From the IMG/VR virus record IMGVR_UViG_3300005356_000003, positions 1 through 41,563 of that record: a stretch of DNA of 41,563 nucleotides, one strand, 5' to 3'. Below, in pieces: positions 200 through 41,563 of the stretch. Origin of the DNA: a virus. The position numbers and the translations under genes are program-made. The first letter of the stretch is position 1; every line of letters starts with the position of its first letter. Under the pieces are notes generated by a model that saw nothing but the letters and a program-made list of their open reading frames with translations, had not been told where the DNA came from and did not search any database.

Positions 200-232
200 T
201 TGACAAGCCTACATGAAGGCATGTAGGCTTGT
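200..232 (+). promoter_or_regulatory. Promoter/operator copy 1 (apparently leaderless)
   Basis: The -35 TTGACA is at 200-205, with an 18-base spacer and -10 TAGGCT at 224-229. A perfect 13-base inverted repeat, ACAAGCCTACATG at 203-215 and its complement at 220-232 (loop AAGG), covers the whole core promoter. The ATG of the next gene is at 236, only six bases past the -10, so the transcript should start at or next to the start codon. This copy lacks the GCGGGAC/GGAG leader that follows the other copies. The -35 directly follows the methyltransferase stop codon. Confidence 0.85.
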
Positions 233-235
233 CCC

Positions 236-538
236 ATGACCAGCGAGCAGAACACACAGGCCGAACAAGACCTCCGCGGGTACCGCGTCCTGCGCGGCGC
301 GATCAATGTAGGTGACTACATTCGGATCGCCAACGCCAACCCGTCGATGTGCGAGCAGTGGTGGAAGGTCACCTCGATCGAAGAGACCAAGATCGGGCAC
401 GCGACGCGGGTCAACCTGGTCAACGCGATCGGCGGTTTCCGGACCGGGTACGCGCTGAACTCATGGGACCGGATCATCCGGCACCCCTACTCGCAGAAGC
501 GCGCCAACCCTGCCAATTACGTTCCGCTGGAGGACTGA
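236..538 (+). CDS. Small protein of unknown function, possible SH3-like beta barrel
   Basis: The product has 100 residues and no family I can name. After a polar N-terminus it reads as alternating beta strands (YRVLRGAINVGDYIRIAN, WWKVTSIEE, TRVNLVNAIGG), the pattern of a small SH3/KOW-like barrel; that fold is inference. The ATG at 236 sits six bases downstream of the -10 hexamer, which points to a leaderless mRNA, common in actinobacteria, and no ribosome site is visible. It is the first gene after promoter copy 1 and is followed five bases later by the next gene, so the two probably form one short transcript ending at the hairpin at 810-846. Confidence 0.75.
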   Translation: MTSEQNTQAEQDLRGYRVLRGAINVGDYIRIANANPSMCEQWWKVTSIEETKIGHATRVNLVNAIGGFRTGYALNSWDRIIRHPYSQKRANPANYVPLED

Positions 539-543
539 GCGCC

Positions 544-798
544 ATGACCAACCCGTTCCGCCGGCCAACAGAAGCCGACGCCTATCGCGTGCTGCACGGA
601 GGCGGCCTGGCCGCGTTGGAAGCTCGATACGGCATCGGGATCGCCGATGACTTGATCAACCACTGGCACGAGATCGGAATCGCGAAGATTCGGCACCTGA
701 GCGTGCCGACCGGGCGGATCAACCCGCGAACCGGCCGGGAACGGATGGATTACCGGATGGACATCAAGACCTACGCCAAGTACGCCAAGCTGACGTAA
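544..798 (+). CDS. Small basic protein of unknown function
   Basis: The product has 84 residues. The central part (AYRVLHGGGLAALEARYG, IADDLINHWHEIGIAKIRHL) is predicted helical, followed by a basic, proline-containing stretch rich in Arg/Lys with an unusual run of Tyr and Lys near the end (TYAKYAKLT). ATG 544 lies five bases after the stop of the preceding gene, so translation is probably coupled. It is the last gene of the rightward arm; a hairpin follows at 810-846 and the converging lysis gene ends at 886. No function can be assigned. A nucleic-acid-binding role would fit the charge but is not shown. Confidence 0.7.
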   Translation: MTNPFRRPTEADAYRVLHGGGLAALEARYGIGIADDLINHWHEIGIAKIRHLSVPTGRINPRTGRERMDYRMDIKTYAKYAKLT

Positions 799-809
799 TG
801 CCGGACACA

Positions 810-846
810 CGAAAGCCCCCCAGTCGTCGACCCAGGGGGACTTTCG
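810..846. terminator. Bidirectional hairpin terminator between converging arms
   Basis: CGAAAGCCCCC (810-820) pairs with GGGGGACTTTCG (835-846) with one bulged A; the loop itself contains a short GTC/GAC pairing. It lies in the 87-base gap between the rightward gene ending at 798 and the leftward gene ending at 886, where both arms must stop. There is no T tract, as is usual for high-GC actinobacterial terminators. Confidence 0.75.
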
Positions 847-4128: not shown

Positions 4129-6959
4129 AGCCCATCCACTCCTGGTCGCCACATCCGCACGGCCGCGCCGGCCGCGGGGGACACGCTCACGTTGTTCAGC
4201 CCGCGCACGACGGTACCGACCTGCGTCGGGCGCAGCGCCAGCACCAGGCCGCGGGAGATGGCGCTGATCCCGCCGGTCACGGTGAACGAACCGGCCGGAA
4301 TGTCGGTCGCGGTGGTCTGGATGGCGTAGTCGACCACGACTCCCATGTCGTCGCCTGCGGTGACCGGGCTGTCGGTGGCCTCGGTGGCGCCGGCCAGCGT
4401 GGCCACCGAAGTCCAGTCATCTTGTTTCCAGCCGATGTACAGGATCAGCGCGCCGTCGCGCTCGACATTCAGCGCCGGATAGGCGATGTTCTGTGCCGAC
4501 CCGTTCAGTTGTGTCGCGTGCGCCGGCACTTTCTTGGTGCCGCCGGCCGCGGCCATGCTGAGTTCGTCAAACGCGAAGATCCGTGACCAGGTGTCCGCGT
4601 TGGCCGCCCCGCCCGTATACGTACATGTCGGCGCGACGACGCCGCTCTCGTACGGCCGGGCCATGACCTTGACGTTCCCGGCGTCGGCCAGCAGCGTCCA
4701 GCCGGACGGCACGTCCGGGGTGCCGGTGCCGCTGTTGCGGATCGCGCTCACCAGGACCAGCGTCTCACCAGCGCTGGCGTTGAGTCCCGCCGGTAGGCCG
4801 GGCGTCGTGCTGGCGTTGTTCGCGCTGCTCGCCGTGCCGGCCGCGATGAACGCGATGGTTCCGGTGGATAGGCTGTCCAGCCTCACCACCTCGCCGGAGA
4901 CCTGGAGATAGTAGGACGTCACCTCCGACCATTGCGGGCCGAGGTGGGTGGACAGCCGGAAAGAGGTGTCCGTGGTGTTGCGACCGTGGAACAGGGTCGA
5001 GCCTGACGTGTCCACCGTTTCGATCTCCCAGGGGTCGGCGCTGCGGCACACGAACCGGAAGACATGACCCTGCCGGCCGGACGTCTCGGTGCATCCCATG
5101 ATCATTAGTCGTAGGTCGTACTGATCGAGGTAGCGCGGCGTGCCCGTCGTGGGCATCCGGATACGGATCACGTCGCCCACGTACGCGCTGCGCACCGCGG
5201 CGATCAGCGTGTCGCTACCGGACAGCGCCGACCGGGTCAGGTCGACGACCACCTGTGGGTACCGGCGACCCTTCCATGACGCGAGATGCAGCCGCCAGCC
5301 CGCGGCCGGCGGCAGTTGGTTGTCGCTGAACAGGTTGAGCTCGAAGGGTCCCGCGATCCGGTCGCCGATACCGTCGGCCGCCACACTCGGATCGGCGCCG
5401 TGGTAGTGGTAGCCGTCCGCTTCCTGTGTCAGTTCGAAGGTCGCGCCGCCGCGCCGGTTGACCACGATGCCGGACGCCAGGGCGAAATCGTCGTCGGCCT
5501 GTTGCATGAGGCTGCCCTCGGTGCCGACCTGCGCGCCGTCGGCCACCCCGTACATCAGGGTGAACTTGGGCGGCTGATTGACCAGACCCTGCCATCCGCA
5601 GTACAGCCGGCCGGGCGTCGCACTGTCGCGCAGTTCGGGCAGTAGCCCGCCGTCGACATCGATCGCCTCGTCGAGCAGGTTCGACAGGGTGTCGACCCCT
5701 TGGGGTCCCATCAAAGGGGAGTTGATCGCACTGAATACTCCGCCGTTGCCGTTGCGATACTCCACGCCGAGCCCGGCATCCTCAAGTAGCCGTGCGATAC
5801 GCGACCCCGCGGCCTCACCCTCGAAGCCGCGCCACGCGCAGGCGCCCGACCCGATCGGTTCCAGAAACGATGCCAGCGACGCGGTATCGGTCGTCACCAC
5901 CAGGTGTCCGACGGAAAATTCCCCTGCGAACTGTTGCTGTATGGCGATCGAATGGTAGGCGCCGAAGGTGCGGGCGGCCCACGTGTCCGACAGCCCGACG
6001 CCTATCTGGCTGGCCGAGGCATCGAGGTAGACCGACAGGGTCAGGTCGATGTCGGCGCCGTTCTGGACGAAGTCGACCGACACTGCGACGTCGGTGCCGA
6101 GCAACTCAACGGAGAAATCCACGGTCGTGGTCGCGTGCACCTGCGAACCGGACCGGTAGCCGAAGATCTGCAACACGCCCGCGTCGCTGATGACCACGTC
6201 CGCGAAGTCGAGCGTTCCGCCGAAGAAATACATCCGGTAGGCATGGTTGTCGCCGCCCGGACCTTCGGCTGGGATGTGCCACGTCGCCGCAATCCGGTAC
6301 TCGGTGCTGGCCGTATGGGCCGGCGCCACCACGAAGATGATGCCGCCCTCCGTCAGGGTCACCATCCGTGGTGTGGCGGGGTGGTCGGCGTACCCCCCGA
6401 ACTGGACGCCGCCGGCCCACGACACCGTAGGGTGCGCGTCGATCGGTGAGGCGACGGTACTCGACGACGACTCTTCCTCCAGCGGCAGGTACACCAGCAT
6501 GGACGCGCGCGCGGCCGCCTGCGCCAGCGCGCGATAGGCCGGCGACCGGATGGGCTGCGTGTACTGGCTGTCCTGCCTGCGCAGGCCGGACACCAGCACA
6601 TCGACCATGGTGTCGGCGCCGGCTGTCGCGCGCCAGGCCGCGTTGAACCTGGTCAGCTGGCCGATCATCCTGACCAGCGTGTCCGCGTGCCCGTCGTCGA
6701 TCTCGACGCGGACCTGCGCGCCGAGTCCGTACCGCCCGAAATACGCGGAGTACGGATTCTCCCAATCGAGGTCACCGTTGGGATCGAAGATCTGGAATGC
6801 CACCTCGCTCGGTGACAATGAGTTGCTGGCGTCGCGGAAACCCCAGAAGATGTCGACGGCGTTGCGCCCGCCGAGCCCCTGGACATACGACGTCACATCG
6901 ACGTCGGCGCCGCCGATCACGAAATAGATCTTGACCGGAACCGGTAGCTGTAGGCTCAT
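4125..6959 (-). CDS. Large minor tail protein: tail hub with lectin-like and beta-sandwich domains
   Basis: The product has 944 residues. Residues 1-150 (VDVTSYVQGLGGRNAVDIFWG, EVAFQIFDPNGDLDWENPYS) resemble the distal-tail/hub N-terminus of actinophage minor tail proteins. Residues about 155-365 form a concanavalin/LamG-like insert (YLPLEE at the start, later TVDFSVELLGTDVAVSVDF) of the kind that binds sugars. Hub sequence resumes to about 685, and residues 700-925 form a separate Ig-like beta sandwich (VPSGWTLLADAGNVKVMARPY). A similar sandwich forms the N-terminus of the product at 13928-15493. It probably closes the tail tip and contacts the cell. ATGA overlaps join it to both neighbours. 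Confidence 0.8.
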   Translation of the reverse strand: MSLQLPVPVKIYFVIGGADVDVTSYVQGLGGRNAVDIFWGFRDASNSLSPSEVAFQIFDPNGDLDWENPYSAYFGRYGLGAQVRVEIDDGHADTLVRMIGQLTRFNAAWRATAGADTMVDVLVSGLRRQDSQYTQPIRSPAYRALAQAAARASMLVYLPLEEESSSSTVASPIDAHPTVSWAGGVQFGGYADHPATPRMVTLTEGGIIFVVAPAHTASTEYRIAATWHIPAEGPGGDNHAYRMYFFGGTLDFADVVISDAGVLQIFGYRSGSQVHATTTVDFSVELLGTDVAVSVDFVQNGADIDLTLSVYLDASASQIGVGLSDTWAARTFGAYHSIAIQQQFAGEFSVGHLVVTTDTASLASFLEPIGSGACAWRGFEGEAAGSRIARLLEDAGLGVEYRNGNGGVFSAINSPLMGPQGVDTLSNLLDEAIDVDGGLLPELRDSATPGRLYCGWQGLVNQPPKFTLMYGVADGAQVGTEGSLMQQADDDFALASGIVVNRRGGATFELTQEADGYHYHGADPSVAADGIGDRIAGPFELNLFSDNQLPPAAGWRLHLASWKGRRYPQVVVDLTRSALSGSDTLIAAVRSAYVGDVIRIRMPTTGTPRYLDQYDLRLMIMGCTETSGRQGHVFRFVCRSADPWEIETVDTSGSTLFHGRNTTDTSFRLSTHLGPQWSEVTSYYLQVSGEVVRLDSLSTGTIAFIAAGTASSANNASTTPGLPAGLNASAGETLVLVSAIRNSGTGTPDVPSGWTLLADAGNVKVMARPYESGVVAPTCTYTGGAANADTWSRIFAFDELSMAAAGGTKKVPAHATQLNGSAQNIAYPALNVERDGALILYIGWKQDDWTSVATLAGATEATDSPVTAGDDMGVVVDYAIQTTATDIPAGSFTVTGGISAISRGLVLALRPTQVGTVVRGLNNVSVSPAAGAAVRMWRPGVDGL

Positions 6960-32639: not shown

Positions 32640-32846
32640 CTAAACCTCGACGGATGCGGTCGCTACGGCGGTACCCGCCAGTTCGCGCCGCGCCCGTCTG
32701 GTCAGCCAGCGGATCACCTCGCCGCGCCCGACGTTGCGCCCACGGCGCGCGCTGAGATCGCGGCGCACCCCCTCGATCCACGCCAGCACGTCCGAGTCTT
32801 CCTGATACGTCACACCTTGCTTAGATTTCTTGATCGGCTCAGTCAT
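32640..32846 (-). CDS. Ribbon-helix-helix-like regulator
   Basis: The product has 68 residues from ATG 32846. GVTYQEDSDVLAWIEGVRRD followed by RRGRNVGRGEVIRWLTRRAR resembles the strand-helix-turn-helix of Arc/CopG proteins. It diverges from the gene at 32920, and a perfect 17-base palindrome (32863-32879) lies between them in operator position. A likely -10 (TAGAGT, 32859-32854 on the minus strand) ends eight bases before the ATG, so the mRNA may be leaderless. It is probably an autoregulated repressor at the divergence point of the two arms. Confidence 0.65.
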   Translation of the reverse strand: MTEPIKKSKQGVTYQEDSDVLAWIEGVRRDLSARRGRNVGRGEVIRWLTRRARRELAGTAVATASVEV

Positions 32847-32862
32847 GTGAGGCACTCTAACT

Positions 32863-32879
32863 TGCTTCAAGTTGAAGCA
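32863..32879. promoter_or_regulatory. Perfect 17-base palindrome in the divergent control region
   Basis: TGCTTCAA, a central G, and TTGAAGCA lie between the two divergently transcribed genes that begin the leftward and rightward arms. A possible plus-strand promoter TTGCTT (32862-32867), 17-base spacer, TACGGT (32885-32890) overlaps it. It is a good operator candidate for the adjacent ribbon-helix-helix protein and is unrelated to the CCTACA/TGTAGG family. Confidence 0.6.
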
Positions 32880-32919
32880 CCAGCTACGGTCAACCGGCGG
32901 GGCACGGAAAGGACGGAAC

Positions 32920-35602: not shown

Positions 35603-35632
35603 TTGACATTCCTGCAATCGTCGCTGTAAGCT
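35603..35632 (+). promoter_or_regulatory. Promoter without operator palindrome
   Basis: TTGACA (35603-35608), 18-base spacer, TAAGCT (35627-35632) precede the gene at 35665 by a leader with AGGAAAGG. The spacing equals that of the operator family but the spacer has no inverted repeat and the leader has no GCGGGAC box, so it is probably not under the same regulator. Confidence 0.6.
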
Positions 35633-35664: not shown

Positions 35665-36555
35665 ATGCAACCGCAACAGCCGTACTACGGCCAGCCGCCC
35701 GGCTACGCGCCGCAGCAGTACGTCCCGCAGCCTCAGCAGCAGTACGCGGCACCGGCCGCGGTTGCCGGTCCGCCGCAGTTCTCCGACCCGACCGGCGGTA
35801 GCGGCGGCGGCATGCCGCTCAAGCTCCGCGAGATCCTCGGTCGTGCCTGCGGAATCAAGCCGGTCAAGTTCCGGCCGGCCCTCGGCCAGATGTTCGGCGG
35901 GAAGCCGCAGACCGACTCGATCGTCATGGACATCCTGATCCTGGACGGTCCCGTACCGCTCCAGTTCGGCGAGTCGCAGGCGACCGACGGTACCGGCGGT
36001 CCGGCCTGTTACCAGCTCGACACGCTCCCGGCGCTGGTGACCGGCGTTATCAGCAACAATCAGGAAGTCGTCAAGGAGTGCAGGCGGGTACTGGAACAGA
36101 CCCCCGGCAATGTGATCCCGTGCCGGATCGTGCGCGGCATGATGGGCAACAACCCGTTTCTGCTGGCCGCTCTCGGCGGCGTCAGCGACCCGCAGCCGCA
36201 GTTGGCCGACCAGGCCCGCGCGCAACTGGCCGCGGTCTACACGGCGATCACGATGGGTCAGTTCGTCAACCCTGAGCCGCGGGAGATCAACGGGGGTCCG
36301 CGGCGGAAGGCGACGAACAACAGCGCCGCGCCGCAGCAGCAGGCCGTCCAGTACCCGCCGCAGGCGGCCTACCCGCCCCCGCCGCCGACGGGTCAGGTTG
36401 TCTACCCGCCGGCCAGCCCGAGTCACCCGGCCGTCGCGGCGTACAACGCGCAGCAGCAGGCGCCCGCCACCCCGGCGGCGCCGCCGGGGTGGGACCCGAA
36501 CGTATGGGCCGGCCTGCCCGACGCCGACAAGGCGCGCTTCCTGCCCCAGCAGTAG
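35665..36555 (+). CDS. Pro/Gln-rich protein, possible single-stranded DNA-binding protein
   Basis: The product has 296 residues. A disordered N-terminal arm rich in Pro, Gln, Tyr (QPYYGQPPGYAPQQYVPQPQ) and a longer disordered C-terminal tail (GQVVYPPASPSHPAVAAYNA) flank a core of about 140 residues: LKLREILGRACGIKPVKFRP, TDSIVMDILILDGPVPLQFG, GNVIPCRIVRGMMGNNPFLL. The strand-rich core followed by a low-complexity tail resembles actinophage SSB-like proteins encoded beside RecB-type nucleases, but I cannot confirm an OB fold. It has its own promoter at 35603. Confidence 0.6.
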   Translation: MQPQQPYYGQPPGYAPQQYVPQPQQQYAAPAAVAGPPQFSDPTGGSGGGMPLKLREILGRACGIKPVKFRPALGQMFGGKPQTDSIVMDILILDGPVPLQFGESQATDGTGGPACYQLDTLPALVTGVISNNQEVVKECRRVLEQTPGNVIPCRIVRGMMGNNPFLLAALGGVSDPQPQLADQARAQLAAVYTAITMGQFVNPEPREINGGPRRKATNNSAAPQQQAVQYPPQAAYPPPPPTGQVVYPPASPSHPAVAAYNAQQQAPATPAAPPGWDPNVWAGLPDADKARFLPQQ

Positions 36556-36638
36556 GCGCCCATGAGTCCCGCACGCCGGCCAGCCCGGACCTGCCCCGAC
36601 ACATCACGGCAGATGTTCCCTGACCGGCGTGCGGCAAA

Positions 36639-36727
36639 CCCGAGGTAGCTCAACGGCAGAGCACCCGTCCCCGATGGCGCGCGGCAGCAAGGGACGATAG
36701 GTCCGGGTTCGACTCCCGGCCTCGGGA
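36639..36727 (+). tRNA. tRNA-like gene with abnormal anticodon loop
   Basis: Acceptor CCCGAGG (36639-36645) pairs perfectly with CCTCGGG (36720-36726), then A. D-arm GCTC-AACGGCA-GAGC and T-arm CCGGG-TTCGACT-CCCGG are canonical. The anticodon region is not: CGTCCC pairs with GGGACG (six pairs, the two lower positions mismatched), leaving a 19-base loop instead of seven. The total is 89 bases; CCA is not encoded. No anticodon can be assigned. It may be a tRNA with an insertion, a decayed copy, or a tRNA mimic. Confidence 0.65.
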
Positions 36728-36728
36728 C

Positions 36729-36893
36729 GTGAAGAGATCAAAAGACTACAGCGGTCGCCATCGCGTGGCATGGTGGCATCCTCGCGCGCTGGCCGCGGTC
36801 ATCGTGCCGCCCAGCGAGCAGGCCATGATCCGACTGTCGGCGCTGACCGTCGTGCTGGCCTACGCGCTGTACCTCGTCGTGAGGCTCGGCTGA
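36729..36893 (+). CDS. Small membrane protein
   Basis: The product has 54 residues from GTG 36729, which begins two bases after the tRNA-like gene. A basic, His/Trp-containing start (KRSKDYSGRHRVAWWHPRAL) precedes a hydrophobic segment near residues 35-53 (IRLSALTVVLAYALYLVVRL). The stop shares a base with the next ATG (TGATG), which supports translation here, but no clear ribosome site precedes the GTG; an internal ATG would give a 22-residue membrane peptide. Function unknown. Confidence 0.45.
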   Translation: MKRSKDYSGRHRVAWWHPRALAAVIVPPSEQAMIRLSALTVVLAYALYLVVRLG

Positions 36894-37279
36894 TGTCGGC
36901 CGAGCGGATGTCCACGGCGCAGTGCGCGCACGCCGCCGGAATCAGGCAGGGCACCTGGAGTGCCTATGTCGCCCGCGGTCACGCGCCGAAGCCGGACGGC
37001 CGACTGCGCGACACTGGCGCCCCGTACTGGCTTCGGTCGACCTACGAGCGGTGGAGGGCCAACCGCCCCGGCGCCGAACACGCCGACGCGACACTGGCCA
37101 CCCACGACCGGATCGAAGCCGCGGACAAGGTCGACCTCGATGATGGTTACCGGCCGGCCAGCAACGTCGCCCTGGCACGCAGGCTCGGCATCAGCGCGGC
37201 GACGGTGACCAGGCACCGCAAAGGCGTCTGTCGGTGCGCCCAGTTGCGCGCCCGGCGCGCGGGTGCGGGCGCGCGTTGA
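36893..37279 (+). CDS. Double helix-turn-helix regulator
   Basis: The product has 128 residues. Residues 6-60 (STAQCAHAAGIRQGTWSAYV, ARGHAPKPDG, WLRSTYERWRANRPG) match the excisionase/AlpA-MerR-like HTH pattern in which a recognition helix is followed by a wing ending in a WRANRPG-type motif. A second HTH follows near 88-112 (ASNVALARRLGISAATVTRH). The C-terminus is basic with CRC. Two DNA-binding modules suit a transcription regulator, and with no excision system in the genome, control of the palindromic promoters just downstream is a reasonable guess. ATG shares a base with the upstream stop. Confidence 0.7.
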   Translation: MSAERMSTAQCAHAAGIRQGTWSAYVARGHAPKPDGRLRDTGAPYWLRSTYERWRANRPGAEHADATLATHDRIEAADKVDLDDGYRPASNVALARRLGISAATVTRHRKGVCRCAQLRARRAGAGAR

Positions 37280-37557
37280 CGACGCACTACGCGACGTGGC
37301 AGGACATCACCGGCAGTCCCGGCGTCCGCGAGAGCGTGTTCGCCGCGCTCGGCTACGACACGAGCGGCTACGACGTGCCGGCCGTCGTCGACGAATACCG
37401 CGCCGCGATCGACGCCGCCCTGCCCCGTCCCGTCGCGTTGCGCGGTGATGACTTTGTCGGTCCGTGTCCGGCGCCCGATGGGGCATGGTCGGCGCTCGCC
37501 GAGGCAGTCAACGGCATCGACCTCTGGCGCTTGACAAGCTTACATAGAAGCATGTAG
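37276..37557 (+). CDS. Protein of unknown function whose end runs through an operator
   Basis: The product has 93 residues from TTG 37276 (TTGA overlap with the preceding stop). HYATWQDITGSPGVRESVFA, YDVPAVVDEYRAAIDAALP and LRGDDFVGPCPAPDGAWSAL are typical of small actinophage alpha/beta proteins. Its last eight residues (LTSLHRSM) and the TAG stop are encoded by promoter/operator copy 2, the stop lying inside the -10. Function unknown; the start is the least certain part. Confidence 0.6.
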   Translation: MTTHYATWQDITGSPGVRESVFAALGYDTSGYDVPAVVDEYRAAIDAALPRPVALRGDDFVGPCPAPDGAWSALAEAVNGIDLWRLTSLHRSM

Positions 37558-37563
37558 GCTTGT
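37531..37563 (+). promoter_or_regulatory. Promoter/operator copy 2
   Basis: TTGACA 37531-37536, 18-base spacer, TAGGCT 37555-37560. Inverted repeat 37534-37563 with two mismatches, the least perfect of the five plus-strand copies; it is also the one constrained by an overlapping coding sequence. Followed by the conserved leader with GCGGGAC and AGGGAG (37586-37591). Confidence 0.85.
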
Positions 37564-37600
37564 CTTGCAAGCGGGACACGGAGACAGGGAGATGGACGTC

Positions 37601-37864
37601 ATGGCATTCGACAAGCGCACCGGCCGGCGGATCGAACAGCGCGACCCCCAGGAGATCCTTGACGAGCTATACCACGAGCGTGACATGCGCGACCTGGGTG
37701 CCGATCCCGAGTTGTACCCCAGTGCCAGCGATGGCGACCTGGCTGGCCGGATTCGCTTTCACCAGGTGCACCGCGATGCGGCGATCGCCGCGAACCGCAT
37801 CGCGGGTTTGGAGGCGGAAGCGTTCGACAATTGGGAGACCGAATTTCCGGTCGACTCCGACTAG
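37601..37864 (+). CDS. Operator-controlled small charged protein, unknown function
   Basis: The product has 87 residues. Start choice: ATG 37601 lies nine bases after AGGGAG, matching the other leaders; ATG 37592 directly abuts it. The protein is polar and helical (PQEILDELYHERDMRDLGAD, DLAGRIRFHQVHRDAAIAAN, AGLEAEAFDNWETEFPVD), acidic overall, with no cysteines. It is a single-gene unit between operator copies 2 and 3. Small acidic phage proteins can be DNA mimics or inhibitors of host defence, but no motif shows this. Confidence 0.7.
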   Translation: MAFDKRTGRRIEQRDPQEILDELYHERDMRDLGADPELYPSASDGDLAGRIRFHQVHRDAAIAANRIAGLEAEAFDNWETEFPVDSD

Positions 37865-37869
37865 GGCAC

Positions 37870-37902
37870 TTGACAAGCCTACATGGAAACATGTAGGCTT
37901 GC
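37870..37902 (+). promoter_or_regulatory. Promoter/operator copy 3
   Basis: TTGACA 37870-37875, 18-base spacer, TAGGCT 37894-37899. Inverted repeat 37873-37902 with one mismatch at the outermost base and loop GAAA. The leader keeps GCGGGAC but has GGGGCAAGGGAG in place of GGAGACAGGGAG. Confidence 0.85.
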
Positions 37903-37935
37903 TCTGTAAGCGGGACACGGGGCAAGGGAGTCGAG

Positions 37936-38418
37936 ATGAACGCCATGTGGTTCAGAGCCAATGGGGTCGAGGGCACGCGCGAGACCGCGCCGGCCGGCCA
38001 CCCGGTCTACACCGTCACGCATACCGCCAGCGGCCGGTACCTGACGACCGACGTGGTCAGCCTGGCCCTGCGCACGGCGCGCGAGTGGGCCGCGCAGGCG
38101 CCCACGGTCGCACTGATGTCGAGCCCCCTGCCGGCCGCCGAGCGCTGCTCGTCCGGCCTGGCCCGCGGCGCCAGCCTGACCATGCCGAGCGATGCGCAGG
38201 CTCGCAAACTGATCGTTGCGCGAGACAACCTGACGCGTCCAGGCTTGCTGTCGCGCGGCGGCCATGAGTGGCAGGCAAGTATCACGATGCTCCGAGCGCT
38301 GCGTCGACGCGGGTGGATCACACTGAACGACCCGACCCGCCCCACGTACGGCATGATCAACGACAGCGGTCGCCGCGCGCTGGCGCGCTATGAGGCTTCC
38401 AAGGTCGGTGCGCGATGA
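37936..38418 (+). CDS. Operator-controlled protein with winged-helix-like C-terminus
   Basis: The product has 160 residues from ATG 37936, five bases after AGGGAG. Residues 20-60 are a small alpha/beta unit (PVYTVTHTASGRYLTTDVVS, LALRTAREWAAQAP). Residues 85-155 (SDAQARKLIVARDNLTRPGL, ITMLRALRRRGWITLNDPTR, YGMINDSGRRALARYE) read like a winged helix of the MarR-like type, ending in the common 'G..AL..Y' helix. It could therefore be a DNA-binding protein that acts on its own operator and the other copies. Regulatory role is inference. Confidence 0.65.
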   Translation: MNAMWFRANGVEGTRETAPAGHPVYTVTHTASGRYLTTDVVSLALRTAREWAAQAPTVALMSSPLPAAERCSSGLARGASLTMPSDAQARKLIVARDNLTRPGLLSRGGHEWQASITMLRALRRRGWITLNDPTRPTYGMINDSGRRALARYEASKVGAR

Positions 38419-38570
38419 ACGCCACGACCAAGCGCGAATGCGCCTGGTGTCAGCGCGTGGTAACACCGGAGCACGCGCACAAGTGGACTCAAGCTCAGCA
38501 CGCCGAGATCTGGCCGGGACAGCCGTTCATCGACGCATGGTGCCCTGGCGGCAAGGCCGGTGCGCGATGA
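38415..38570 (+). CDS. Small Cys/His protein, possible zinc binder
   Basis: The product has 51 residues. ATG 38415 overlaps the preceding stop and its own stop overlaps the next ATG (both ATGA). It contains ECAWCQRVV (CxxC), HAHKW and AWCPGG, enough for one zinc site. The last residues (GKAGAR) mirror the end of the preceding protein (SKVGAR) because an 18-base gene-junction sequence is nearly duplicated. Similar CxxC peptides are common in actinophage early regions. Function unknown. Confidence 0.65.
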   Translation: MNATTKRECAWCQRVVTPEHAHKWTQAQHAEIWPGQPFIDAWCPGGKAGAR

Positions 38571-38794
38571 CCGGCGACGAACTCAACGCCCTGCCCGTGG
38601 GAGCCGTGGTCATCCCGTCGGACTCCGAATCCTGGCCTGCGGCCAGGACTATATGGTCCGGGTGGCGGAAGACCGACCCGCCCGGTCCCAACGGTCCGTG
38701 GCGTCGCGTCGACGAATCGGACGGAGTGGTCACCACCCGGACGTCGGCGCTGGTGCTCATCGGAGTGAAGCTACTCGAAAGGAACACGCGATGA
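38567..38794 (+). CDS. Small SH3-like protein of unknown function
   Basis: The product has 75 residues. LNALPVGAVVIPSDSESWPA, TIWSGWRKTDPPGPNGPWRR and TSALVLIGVKLLER give the pattern of a small beta barrel with several Trp, often seen in actinophage accessory proteins of unknown role. ATGA overlaps on both sides place it in the operon from operator copy 3. No catalytic residues. Confidence 0.65.
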   Translation: MTGDELNALPVGAVVIPSDSESWPAARTIWSGWRKTDPPGPNGPWRRVDESDGVVTTRTSALVLIGVKLLERNTR

Positions 38795-39201
38795 GCACGT
38801 ACCCGGGCGAGTGCAGCGGTGACACCGGATGTTCGATCCACCCCGGGATGCAATACGCGCACATGCCATGGGGGAACGCCGATCCGATCGATGTCGCGCA
38901 GGACTACAACGTGATCAACGCCGCGCTCGAATGCGCGATCGGCGAGTCGTGGGAGGGAGAGGAATCCTGGTCATGGATCGCCGCGCGATGGATCGAGCAC
39001 ATGGCAACCACGCACGGCGCGCACTGCCCCGGCCGGGGCTGCCTCGCGACCGCCGACGCGCCGGCCTACGTCGGCGCGCTGCGCCGGATGCGGCGCGACG
39101 CCAGCAAGTACGGAGCGCACGCGGACAGCATCTGGCGCGCAGGGTACCGCGACGCCATCCGCGACCTCGCGAACGAGTTGGGGGTTGATCTTGATGGATA
39201 A
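38791..39201 (+). CDS. Protein of unknown function
   Basis: The product has 136 residues. An N-terminal Cys/His-containing part (YPGECSGDTGCSIHPGMQYA) is followed by helices (YNVINAALECAIGESWEGEE, RWIEHMATTHGAHCPGRGCL) and a basic C-terminal helix (LRRMRRDASKYGAHADSIWR). Four or more cysteines with histidines could hold metal. It is within the operon started at operator copy 3. No family recognised. Confidence 0.65.
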   Translation: MSTYPGECSGDTGCSIHPGMQYAHMPWGNADPIDVAQDYNVINAALECAIGESWEGEESWSWIAARWIEHMATTHGAHCPGRGCLATADAPAYVGALRRMRRDASKYGAHADSIWRAGYRDAIRDLANELGVDLDG

Positions 39202-39457
39202 CAGCAACGTCACGTTGATACAGGACGCGATCGGCGGCGTACTGAGCGAAGATGACTGTCCCGTTCATTCAGCCACGCTGGCGCGCGCCGCGCGGGCTGC
39301 GCTCGGCGCGCTGGCCGGCGCCGAGCGGCTACGGGCGGATGATTCCGACGTCGAAGTCCAGCTACAGGCGCCGCCACGGCCCATTCCCTGTGGCCGCCCG
39401 TGGGTAGCCGAGATCGCGCTCTGTCCACGATGCAGGCTCGGGGCAGACAGGCACTGA
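39194..39457 (+). CDS. Small protein with C-terminal CxxC, unknown function
   Basis: The product has 87 residues from ATG 39194, overlapping the previous gene by eight bases. A helical first half (VTLIQDAIGGVLSEDDCPVH, LARAARAALGALAGAERLRA) is followed by a linker and ALCPRCRLGADRH. The CxxC plus CPVH could bind zinc. It ends 10 bases before operator copy 4 and is the last gene of its unit. Function unknown. Confidence 0.6.
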   Translation: MDNSNVTLIQDAIGGVLSEDDCPVHSATLARAARAALGALAGAERLRADDSDVEVQLQAPPRPIPCGRPWVAEIALCPRCRLGADRH

Positions 39458-39466
39458 CCGGGGCGC

Positions 39467-39499
39467 TTGACAAGCCTACATGGAAGCATGTAGGCTTGT
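39467..39499 (+). promoter_or_regulatory. Promoter/operator copy 4
   Basis: TTGACA 39467-39472, 18-base spacer, TAGGCT 39491-39496. Perfect 13-base inverted repeat 39470-39482 and 39487-39499 with loop GAAG. Leader with GCGGGAC (39507-39513) and AGGGAG six bases before ATG 39534. Confidence 0.88.
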
Positions 39500-39533
39500 C
39501 TTGCAAGCGGGACACGGAGACAGGGAGACGGAC

Positions 39534-39986
39534 ATGAGCCTCACGACGATCCACACCTTTGACATTGCCGACCAGCGGGCGCGGTTCAGCTACGACGGCA
39601 TCGCGTTGCGGGCTGTCGAAATCCGGACCGATGAGAACGGCGAACTGTGGATTTTCGCGATCCGGGTGACCAGGCGCGGCGCCGACCACAGGAGCGGCAC
39701 GGGGTTCTGGCTGACCCTCGCGGACACCCTCGACCGCCGTGAGGACTGCGCCAGCATCGCCGCCTACGTTCGCGAATTGACCGCGATCAGCGATCGCGAC
39801 GGTACGCCGATCACAACCGGCGCCACCGTCGAATACCGGACGTTCAACCCGGTCGGCGCCGAGGTCGACGGGCTGACCGGGCGCGTCGACGACGTTGGCT
39901 CGGACGGCATGATCGGGGTCGAGTGGGAGTCGGCGCGCGGCGAGGTTCAGTGGCACTGCCCCAGCGTCCTACTGGTCGTGGCGTGA
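39534..39986 (+). CDS. Operator-controlled beta-rich protein of unknown function
   Basis: The product has 150 residues from ATG 39534, with the ribosome site of the conserved leader; a longer open frame runs through the promoter and is not used. The first 90 residues are beta strands and one helix (ALRAVEIRTDENGELWIFAI, CASIAAYVRELTAISDRDG). The last 55 form a clear SH3/KOW-like barrel (TTGATVEYRTFNPVGAEVDG, GLTGRVDDVGSDGMIGVEWE). It shares a base with the next gene. Barrel-bearing proteins recur among the operator-driven genes. Confidence 0.7.
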   Translation: MSLTTIHTFDIADQRARFSYDGIALRAVEIRTDENGELWIFAIRVTRRGADHRSGTGFWLTLADTLDRREDCASIAAYVRELTAISDRDGTPITTGATVEYRTFNPVGAEVDGLTGRVDDVGSDGMIGVEWESARGEVQWHCPSVLLVVA

Positions 39987-40237
39987 TGGCCAACGAAGGA
40001 CTTGACCAGGTCATCGCGGATATCTATGACGGGATCGGCCGACCGGACCGGGCGGCCATGGTGCGCCAGGACCTCGACCCGCACGACGGGTGCGCCGATG
40101 CGGACGAGACCGAGATCCTCGTCAAGGTGCTCGACGCCGTACCGGACAGCAAGGTCAAGAAACACGATGGCGGCTGCTGGCAGCTGCACGCGGCATGCCT
40201 GCGCGACAAGCTCTATGCCGACATGGGGTGGGAGTAG
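39986..40237 (+). CDS. Small acidic protein of unknown function
   Basis: The product has 83 residues. ATG 39986 shares its A with the preceding stop (TGATG). It is helical and acidic (GLDQVIADIYDGIGRPDRAA, LDPHDGCADADETEILVKVL) with three cysteines late on (DGGCWQLHAACLRDKLY). Its TAG stop directly abuts the TTGACA of operator copy 5. Function unknown. Confidence 0.65.
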   Translation: MANEGLDQVIADIYDGIGRPDRAAMVRQDLDPHDGCADADETEILVKVLDAVPDSKVKKHDGGCWQLHAACLRDKLYADMGWE

Positions 40238-40270
40238 TTGACAAGCCTACATGGAAGCATGTAGGCTTGT
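40238..40270 (+). promoter_or_regulatory. Promoter/operator copy 5
   Basis: TTGACA 40238-40243, 18-base spacer, TAGGCT 40262-40267. Perfect inverted repeat 40241-40253 and 40258-40270, loop GAAG. Leader with GCGGGAC and GAGGGAG, eight bases before ATG 40309. It drives a small gene and the methyltransferase. Confidence 0.88.
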
Positions 40271-40308
40271 TCTGTAAGCGGGACACGGAGACAGAGGGAG
40301 ACAGTCAG

Positions 40309-40506
40309 ATGATCGCCAGGGGCATGAAGATCCGGCTCACCAGCGTCGCGCCGGTCAGCGCCCAGTTTCTCGGCCGCACGGCCGCCGTGGTCAACGTGCT
40401 CGGCAACTCGGTCGTCCTGAACGTCGACGGCCACGGTGCCGCGATCGTCCACCGCGCGTGGGGCACCAAGCGGAACCCCGGCGACCTCGCCTTTGATGTC
40501 CTGTGA
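40309..40506 (+). CDS. Operator-controlled small SH3-like protein
   Basis: The product has 65 residues from ATG 40309. The sequence MKIRLTSVAPVSAQFLGRTA, VVNVLGNSVVLNVDGHGAAI and VHRAWGTKRNPGDLAFDVL is a compact barrel pattern with no cysteines. Its TGA overlaps the GTG of the methyltransferase, so the two are co-translated and may work together, for example in protecting DNA. That link is only positional. Confidence 0.7.
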   Translation: MIARGMKIRLTSVAPVSAQFLGRTAAVVNVLGNSVVLNVDGHGAAIVHRAWGTKRNPGDLAFDVL

Positions 40507-41563
40507 GCATCACGATCGGTTCGATGTACAGCGGGTACGGAGGGCTAGAGCTGGCCGCCGCAGCGGCTTCGGCCCTTCCCGTCCGCACGCTCTGGCACTG
40601 CGAGGTCGACCCGGACGCGAGCCACGTACTCAAGATCCATCATCCGGACGTGCCGAACATCGGAAGCGACGACACACAGGACTGGTCGACTGTCGAGCGG
40701 CCGGACCTGCTGGCCGGCGGTCCGCCGTGTCAGGCCATCTCGCAGGCCGGCAGACGGGGTGCCGAGGCTGACCCGCGCTGGCGCTGGCCGCACTTCCTGA
40801 CCGCGCTGCGCGGACTGCGGCCGGCCGCGTTCGTTGCCGAGAACCCGGTAGGACTGGTCACGCATCTCAAGGGCGCCACCTGGCAAGGCATCCTGGACGA
40901 GATGCGCGGCGCCGGCTACGCGGTCGCATGGGTCATCATCGGCGCGTGCGCCGTTGGCGCGCCGCACTGCCGGCACCGGATGTTCGCGATCGGACGGCTG
41001 CGTGCCGCGCCCGGACCAGCCGTACGGCTCAGTCCCGAACGTCACCTCTGCGGCAAGCGTGGCCCGTTGCTCCCGACCCCCGTCGCCCGCGACGGCGACG
41101 GGCGCGGCGAGGGTGATGCCGCCTACTGGGAGCGCAAGGCGCTACGTCGCGCCCACCAGGGTCTGCCGCTCGGCGCGGCCGTGCGCCTGCTACCGACACC
41201 GGTCGTGGCCGACGTCAGAGGGTCGCGCAACGCCACGGCGGGCGATCGCGGCGGCATCGGGGGGCGCACGCTCGGGGACGCACTACGCCTGCTGCCCCCG
41301 CCGCGCGCCAGCGACGCCGCCAACGGCGGTCCGAATCAGGGCATCGCGTCCGGCGACGTCGCGCTGTCCAGCGCCGTCATCGGGGAGCGCTGGGGAGAGT
41401 ACGCGCCGGCCGTCGAGCGCTGGTCGGAGATGACGCGCCCGGCGCCCGAACCGACCGAACCGACCGGCCGCGGTGGCGGACATCGCCTGTCACCACTGCT
41501 GCCCGAGTGGATGCACGGCCTGCCGGCCGGCTACCTGACCGATCACGCCGACCGGAACGCCGC
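40503..41563 (+). CDS. DNA cytosine-5 methyltransferase (continues at base 121)
   Basis: The complete gene is 379 residues from GTG 40503 through the joined ends to TAG 199. It transfers methyl from S-adenosylmethionine to C5 of cytosine. Motif I SMYSGYGGLELAA, motif IV AGGPPCQAISQ with catalytic Cys75, motif VI VAENPVGL with Glu112, motif VIII GAPHCRHRMF (Arg156, Arg158) and motif X GNGVVPAQ are all present. The target-recognition region (about 165-330) holds three LLPxP...D repeats. No restriction enzyme is nearby, so it is an orphan, probably protecting phage DNA from host restriction. It is under operator copy 5. Confidence 0.9.
   Translation, partial: MSITIGSMYSGYGGLELAAAAASALPVRTLWHCEVDPDASHVLKIHHPDVPNIGSDDTQDWSTVERPDLLAGGPPCQAISQAGRRGAEADPRWRWPHFLTALRGLRPAAFVAENPVGLVTHLKGATWQGILDEMRGAGYAVAWVIIGACAVGAPHCRHRMFAIGRLRAAPGPAVRLSPERHLCGKRGPLLPTPVARDGDGRGEGDAAYWERKALRRAHQGLPLGAAVRLLPTPVVADVRGSRNATAGDRGGIGGRTLGDALRLLPPPRASDAANGGPNQGIASGDVALSSAVIGERWGEYAPAVERWSEMTRPAPEPTEPTGRGGGHRLSPLLPEWMHGLPAGYLTDHADRNA
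41444..41563. repeat. Terminal direct repeat, right copy (identical to 1-120)
   Basis: Same 120 bases as the left end, within the methyltransferase frame. It shows the two ends overlap and that the unique genome is 41,443 bases. Confidence 0.95.

Follow-up and report, generated by a model that had tools for sequence, protein, structure and literature searches.

In the actinophage phiC31, a single repressor (the c-repressor) acts at many inverted-repeat operators located at early promoters. Repeated sites for one phage protein are also found in phages of clusters A/CA, where stoperators are asymmetric 13-14 bp sequences, oriented with transcription and present in about 25 copies, that terminate elongation. 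Cluster O phages (Corndog; PMC4351075) carry more than 30 copies of a 17-bp dyad, mostly off promoters; in Corndog, 11 of the copies are intragenic. In the cluster EG Microbacterium phages (Hyperion; PMC7302621), 18-bp inverted repeats with consensus GATCAACCNNGGTTGATC occur in 8-10 copies at one genome end. Closest to the locus described here are the ESAS/SAS elements of cluster K mycobacteriophages (Pope et al. 2011, PMC3203893; Adephagia 2024, PMC11373665). The ESAS of Adephagia are SigA-like promoters with an inverted repeat, for which repression by a regulator has been thought plausible (PMC11373665), and their function has been a standing question since 2011.

We analysed the complete 41,563-nucleotide viral record IMGVR_UViG_3300005356_000003 from IMG/VR (hereafter the window). 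Its two ends share a 120-bp direct repeat (1-120 and 41444-41563), and the genome therefore closes to a circle of 41,443 bp; at ~41.4 kb the record represents a whole genome, either circular or end-redundant. The virus is uncultured and its host group is probably the actinobacteria. Its terminase relatives (~42% identity) belong to Streptomyces and Micromonospora phages. In the scanned proteins, which took in only part of the small ORFs, we found neither an integrase nor a recognised immunity repressor, and lysogenic repression is therefore not implied. Database searches yielded no close relative for testing conservation of the element described below.

The dyad ACAAGCCTACATG-N4-CATGTAGGCTTGT occurs at 203, 37534, 37873, 39470 and 40241, always on the plus strand and with 0, 2, 1, 0 and 0 mismatches, respectively, and in each case it accompanies the promoter motif TTGACA-N18-TAGGCT (Table 1). 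A preliminary description of this DNA had listed five plus-strand copies, three perfect and the others with one or two mismatches, and our scan returned exactly these. The 30-base dyad was absent from 100 dinucleotide shuffles, as against five occurrences in the window, and half-sites elsewhere in the genome are matched only with three mismatches. The observation is real, well above chance and larger than first noted. The dyad had been said to cover the promoter from the -35 to slightly beyond the -10; it does pass the -10, by three bases, but of the -35 it takes in only the final three. In the copies at 37531, 39467 and 200 it extends by one further pair, and both mismatches of copy 2 are confined to the left arm, leaving the -10 unaltered. 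Placement directly after a stop codon, also claimed earlier, is exact at 200 and 40238 and approximate (5 and 9 bases) at 37870 and 39467, but does not apply at 37531, where ORF 37276-37557 enters the element and has the TAG of the -10 as its stop.

Each of the five copies heads one operon in a row of five that fills ~4.7 kb where the plus-strand arm ends. Owing to the end repeat, the copy at 200 falls directly behind the methyltransferase gene, which starts at 40503 and ends across the junction at base 199, and is thus adjacent to the other copies. A strong hairpin, a probable bidirectional terminator, closes this arm where it meets the minus-strand arm. Copies 2-5 are followed by a common leader of ~24 bases that ends at the ribosome site, with AAGCGGGACACGGAGACAGGGAGA as its best form, so that in these four copies the similarity of promoter plus leader spans ~65 bases. 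At copy 1, TAGGCT lies six bases ahead of the ATG, with no ribosome site and no shared leader; from this spacing the mRNA is predicted to be leaderless, with its +1 at about 236, the A of the ATG. A family search with the two ORFs of this operon (236-538 and 544-798) gave no match.

The copy set, earlier given as five, has a further, minus-strand element at 27230. This sixth site consists of TTGACA (27230-27225) followed by a perfect 24-bp palindrome, ATCCTACAGCACGTGCTGTAGGAT (27224-27201), with TAGGAT as the -10, and the stop codon TGA of the helicase gene is located within its TTGACA. It has a CCTACA-N8-TGTAGG core in the same register as the five plus-strand copies and pairs at 13 of 16 positions about the fixed centre, for which simulation gave a probability of 7.5e-6 for a random promoter in this genome. 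The inner eight and some of the outer bases differ from those of the five copies, yet pairing is retained and the palindrome is perfect, and it is therefore the symmetry itself that has been kept. All six sites conform to TTGACA-N18-TAGG(C/A)T, and, counted from the base at which the -35 begins, the dyad centre lies at exactly 17.5 bases in each. The first start of the RusA operon behind the sixth site is ambiguous (ATG 27191 or GTG 27161). Its leader carries GCGGGAC at nearly the same distance as do the leaders of copies 2-5; this resemblance between the leader sequences is only suggestive (alignment p ~0.06). A related promoter at 35603, which heads the stretch 35665-37557 containing the HTH gene, was rejected as a seventh member, with 6 of 16 pairs (P ~0.19) and a dyad no better than chance.

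Table 1. Positions of the promoter-operators, leaders, operons and associated features in the window
Feature	Positions	Strand	Remarks
Copy 1 promoter-operator	200..232	+	TTGACAAGCCTACATGAAGGCATGTAGGCTTGT; perfect dyad 203-232; -10 at 224-229
Copy 2 promoter-operator	37531..37563	+	2 mismatches
Copy 3 promoter-operator	37870..37902	+	1 mismatch
Copy 4 promoter-operator	39467..39499	+	perfect
Copy 5 promoter-operator	40238..40270	+	perfect
Sixth promoter-operator	27201..27230	-	TTGACAATCCTACAGCACGTGCTGTAGGAT; from promoter search of both strands
Related promoter	35603..35632	+	TTGACATTCCTGCAATCGTCGCTGTAAGCT; core CCTACA-N8-TGTAGG in register, 2 mismatches
Copy 2 leader	37569..37592	+	AAGCGGGACACGGAGACAGGGAGA
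Copy 3 leader	37908-37930	+	
Copy 4 leader	39505-39528	+	
Copy 5 leader	40276-40299	+	
Operon 1	236..798	+	ORFs 236-538 (100 aa) and 544-798 (84 aa)
Operon 2	37592..37864	+	single ORF, 90 aa
Operon 3, first gene	37936..38418	+	
Operon 4 (behind copy 4)	39534-40237	+	
Operon 5	40309 to C5-methyltransferase gene	+	methyltransferase gene 40503-41563, ends at 199 after circularisation
Operon behind sixth site	25906..27191	-	includes RusA-like resolvase gene 25906-26409
Candidate regulator	36893..37279	+	AlpA/excisionase-like N-terminus, C-terminal HTH
Candidate regulator 2	37936..38418	+	directly behind copy 3; C-terminal half helix-helix-strand-strand-helix (low-confidence model)
Strong hairpin (probable bidirectional terminator)	811..846		GAAAGCCCCCC...GGGGGACTTTC; closes plus-strand arm, meets minus-strand arm

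The window series most likely works like the ESAS. In both, the non-structural arm of a genome carries several copies, a TTGACA-N16-18-TA...T promoter (N18 in the window) sits inside an inverted repeat, and there is a conserved leader at the ribosome site. The preliminary description had set these elements apart from start-associated sequences on the grounds that the dyad lies inside the promoter; that distinction is wrong, since the ESAS dyad likewise lies on the promoter. The promoter-in-dyad detector used on the window found 6, 4 and 7 sites in stretches of the cluster K phages Adephagia, TM4 and Pixie, with the SAS leader behind most of these sites; seven other actinophages (SV1, phiC31, pMLP1, PapayaSalad, Catfish, NBR1 and Darolandstone) gave none. 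There are also discrepancies. The dyad is near-perfect in the window, whereas the cluster K repeats are imperfect 17-bp sequences; the gap is TACA-N8-TGTA as against ~N13; and the dyad centre lies 17.5 rather than 19-21 bases from the -35. The window leader is conserved yet different from that of cluster K, and the 13-bp SAS GGGATAGGAGCCC has no match in the window with up to two mismatches. The window half-site TTGACA(A/T)GC(C/A)TACA is near the K1 half-site, with 12 of 14 bases in agreement, but six of these 12 are fixed by the -35, and shared ancestry of the regulators does not follow from this agreement. When the window proteins were compared with those of Adephagia, RusA (1e-4) was the sole match better than E 0.01, and neither a related regulator nor any further genome relationship was seen. 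The window has the repeated SigA-like promoter in an inverted repeat that characterises the ESAS, and has neither the SAS, nor the cluster K repeat consensus and spacing, nor a genome relationship to cluster K. We regard the series as a cousin of the ESAS that stands independently of them and does not amount to a novel type of control, and we claim no formal ESAS/SAS membership for it.

The other systems are more distant. The likeness to stoperators drawn in the preliminary description extends to repeated sites for one phage protein, but breaks down at the sites themselves: the window dyads are symmetric and always on a promoter, and none has the asymmetric, off-promoter, single-orientation arrangement. 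The Corndog dyads resemble those of the window in being perfect and in recurring between genes, where the gaps are short; they differ in number and in their location mostly off promoters. The Hyperion repeats, like those of the window, lie shortly 5' of gene starts, although no promoter has been reported inside them (PMC7302621). For phiC31, our detector returned no promoter-covering dyad of the window design.

We consider it reasonably probable that the six sites are host sigma-70/SigA-type promoters overlaid, at six operons, with the operator of a phage-encoded dimeric repressor. That one protein binds all copies and controls the cassettes jointly had been proposed before; this is the best reading and is partly supported, and the finding of the sixth site strengthens the case for coordinated control. 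We infer promoter activity, dimer binding, repression and the phage origin of the binding protein. A single phage-encoded DNA-binding protein would hold off RNA polymerase at the six operons simultaneously; on the minus arm this is the RusA operon, and on the plus arm the five small-gene/methyltransferase operons at its end. Each bound dimer, reaching from the interior of the -35 to slightly beyond the -10, would exclude the host RNA polymerase. With the protein missing or inactive, these near-consensus promoters (TTGACA, 18 bp, TAGGCT/TAGGAT) would fire unaided, the transcripts of copies 2-5 opening with the shared leader and its ribosome site and that of copy 1 opening at the AUG. As the hexamers are close to consensus and the spacing is suitable, no activator should be needed, which favours repression over activation. 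It is very improbable that the binding protein is a MerR-type activator, the alternative suggested earlier, which would sit inside the promoter and realign it. The dyad does lie between the -35 and -10; however, MerR promoters have spacers of 19-20 bp, whereas the spacer is 18 bp at all six sites and the dyad passes the -10. No MerR family match was found among the scanned proteins, and the AlpA/excisionase-like N-terminus of the 36893 protein is only a distant relation of that family.

A host regulator, rather than a phage protein, might bind the dyads and couple the operons to the state of the host. Phage promoters do come under host factors, and on the phage side there are candidates only. 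We nevertheless judge this rather unlikely: the strict pattern TTGACANNCCTACAN8TGTAGGNT was sought in 84,980 species, which may or may not include the host, and gave two Paenibacillus sites only, both of which are terminator-like, with a hairpin and a T-run. Terminator function has also to be weighed for the window dyads, which could act as RNA hairpins that end the upstream transcript while the adjoining promoter starts the next. Each dyad lies at or a few bases from the end of an upstream ORF, the predicted folds, flanks included, are stable at about -24 to -34 kcal/mol, and no other terminators were found between these operons. The stems, however, have no T-run behind them, unlike the GC-rich stem and T-run of an intrinsic terminator, and the element lies outside its own transcript; since a hairpin would leave the fixed -35/-10 register and the conserved CCTACA/TGTAGG core unexplained, we think this role improbable. 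Similarly unlikely, in our estimate, is that the copies are recent duplications of a promoter-leader cassette, or recombination or mobile sequences, with no shared regulator. The ~65 bases, leader included, that four copies have in common would fit such an origin, but the sixth site has diverged in sequence while keeping a perfect dyad and the register, and copy 1 keeps its dyad without such a leader.

Under the preferred reading of a phage-encoded repressor, the proteins of 36893-37279 and 37936-38418 are candidates for the regulator, from weak family matches and low-confidence models. The latter may end in a winged helix, and its best fold neighbours include MarR-type repressors, none of them significant; solved-structure and fold searches with both candidates gave no significant match. 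A relative of the 36893 protein (45% identical, contig L049) has no such promoters within 10 kb. In the region 32640-32880, a minus-strand gene encodes a small basic protein that looks ribbon-helix-helix-like by eye only. A perfect TGCTTCA-N3-TGAAGCA dyad, found once in the genome, lies just upstream of this gene (32863-32879), which is probably a separate, autoregulated one.

The window provides a second, unrelated phage with a promoter-in-dyad and leader arrangement; here the dyads are cleaner, the sixth copy has diverged and one copy is leaderless. This suggests that the dyad on the promoter is the functional unit and is able to act without an SAS-like leader. The series argues for testing the ESAS as a transcriptional operator rather than a translational signal, and as the cleaner example it makes their role directly testable. 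More tentatively, and with a good deal of doubt, promoter-covering dyads with a leader could be a general, repeatedly invented design of actinophage regulons, each with its own operator code and with an unknown class of regulator, possibly shared with cluster K (half-site TTGACAWGCMTACA).

A search of related genomes for the dyad had been recommended in the preliminary description; exact and relaxed scans of IMG/VR and the 84,980 species found no relative of the series, and the element had no useful match when compared by BLASTN with phages and plasmids. For the relaxed half-site pattern, matches were confined to contigs of ~60 kb, each having the N13 gap of cluster K. One match of the dyad scan, in an AT-rich contig, was discarded as unrelated sequence. 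The pattern TTGACANNCCTACAN8TGTAGG occurs in one copy each in AT-rich phage contigs and in one 98-kb contig, and we judge these single matches to be near chance. The AT-rich contigs (L028, L029, L030, L032 and L033) each have a single TTGACAATCCTACA-N8-TGTAGGAT before a start codon, in the same layout as the sixth site of the window and without visible relationship to it. In the 98-kb contig (L031, with a GroEL gene), one TTGACAATCCTACATGAAACTATGTAGGAT at 5938-5966 lies directly 3' of a LuxR-like HTH gene and is another single dyad-covered promoter. Lastly, the window contains an odd tRNA at 36639-36728, for which ARAGORN gave an anticodon of only two bases and named no amino acid; its Rfam score is well above threshold, and its variable region appears to be long.
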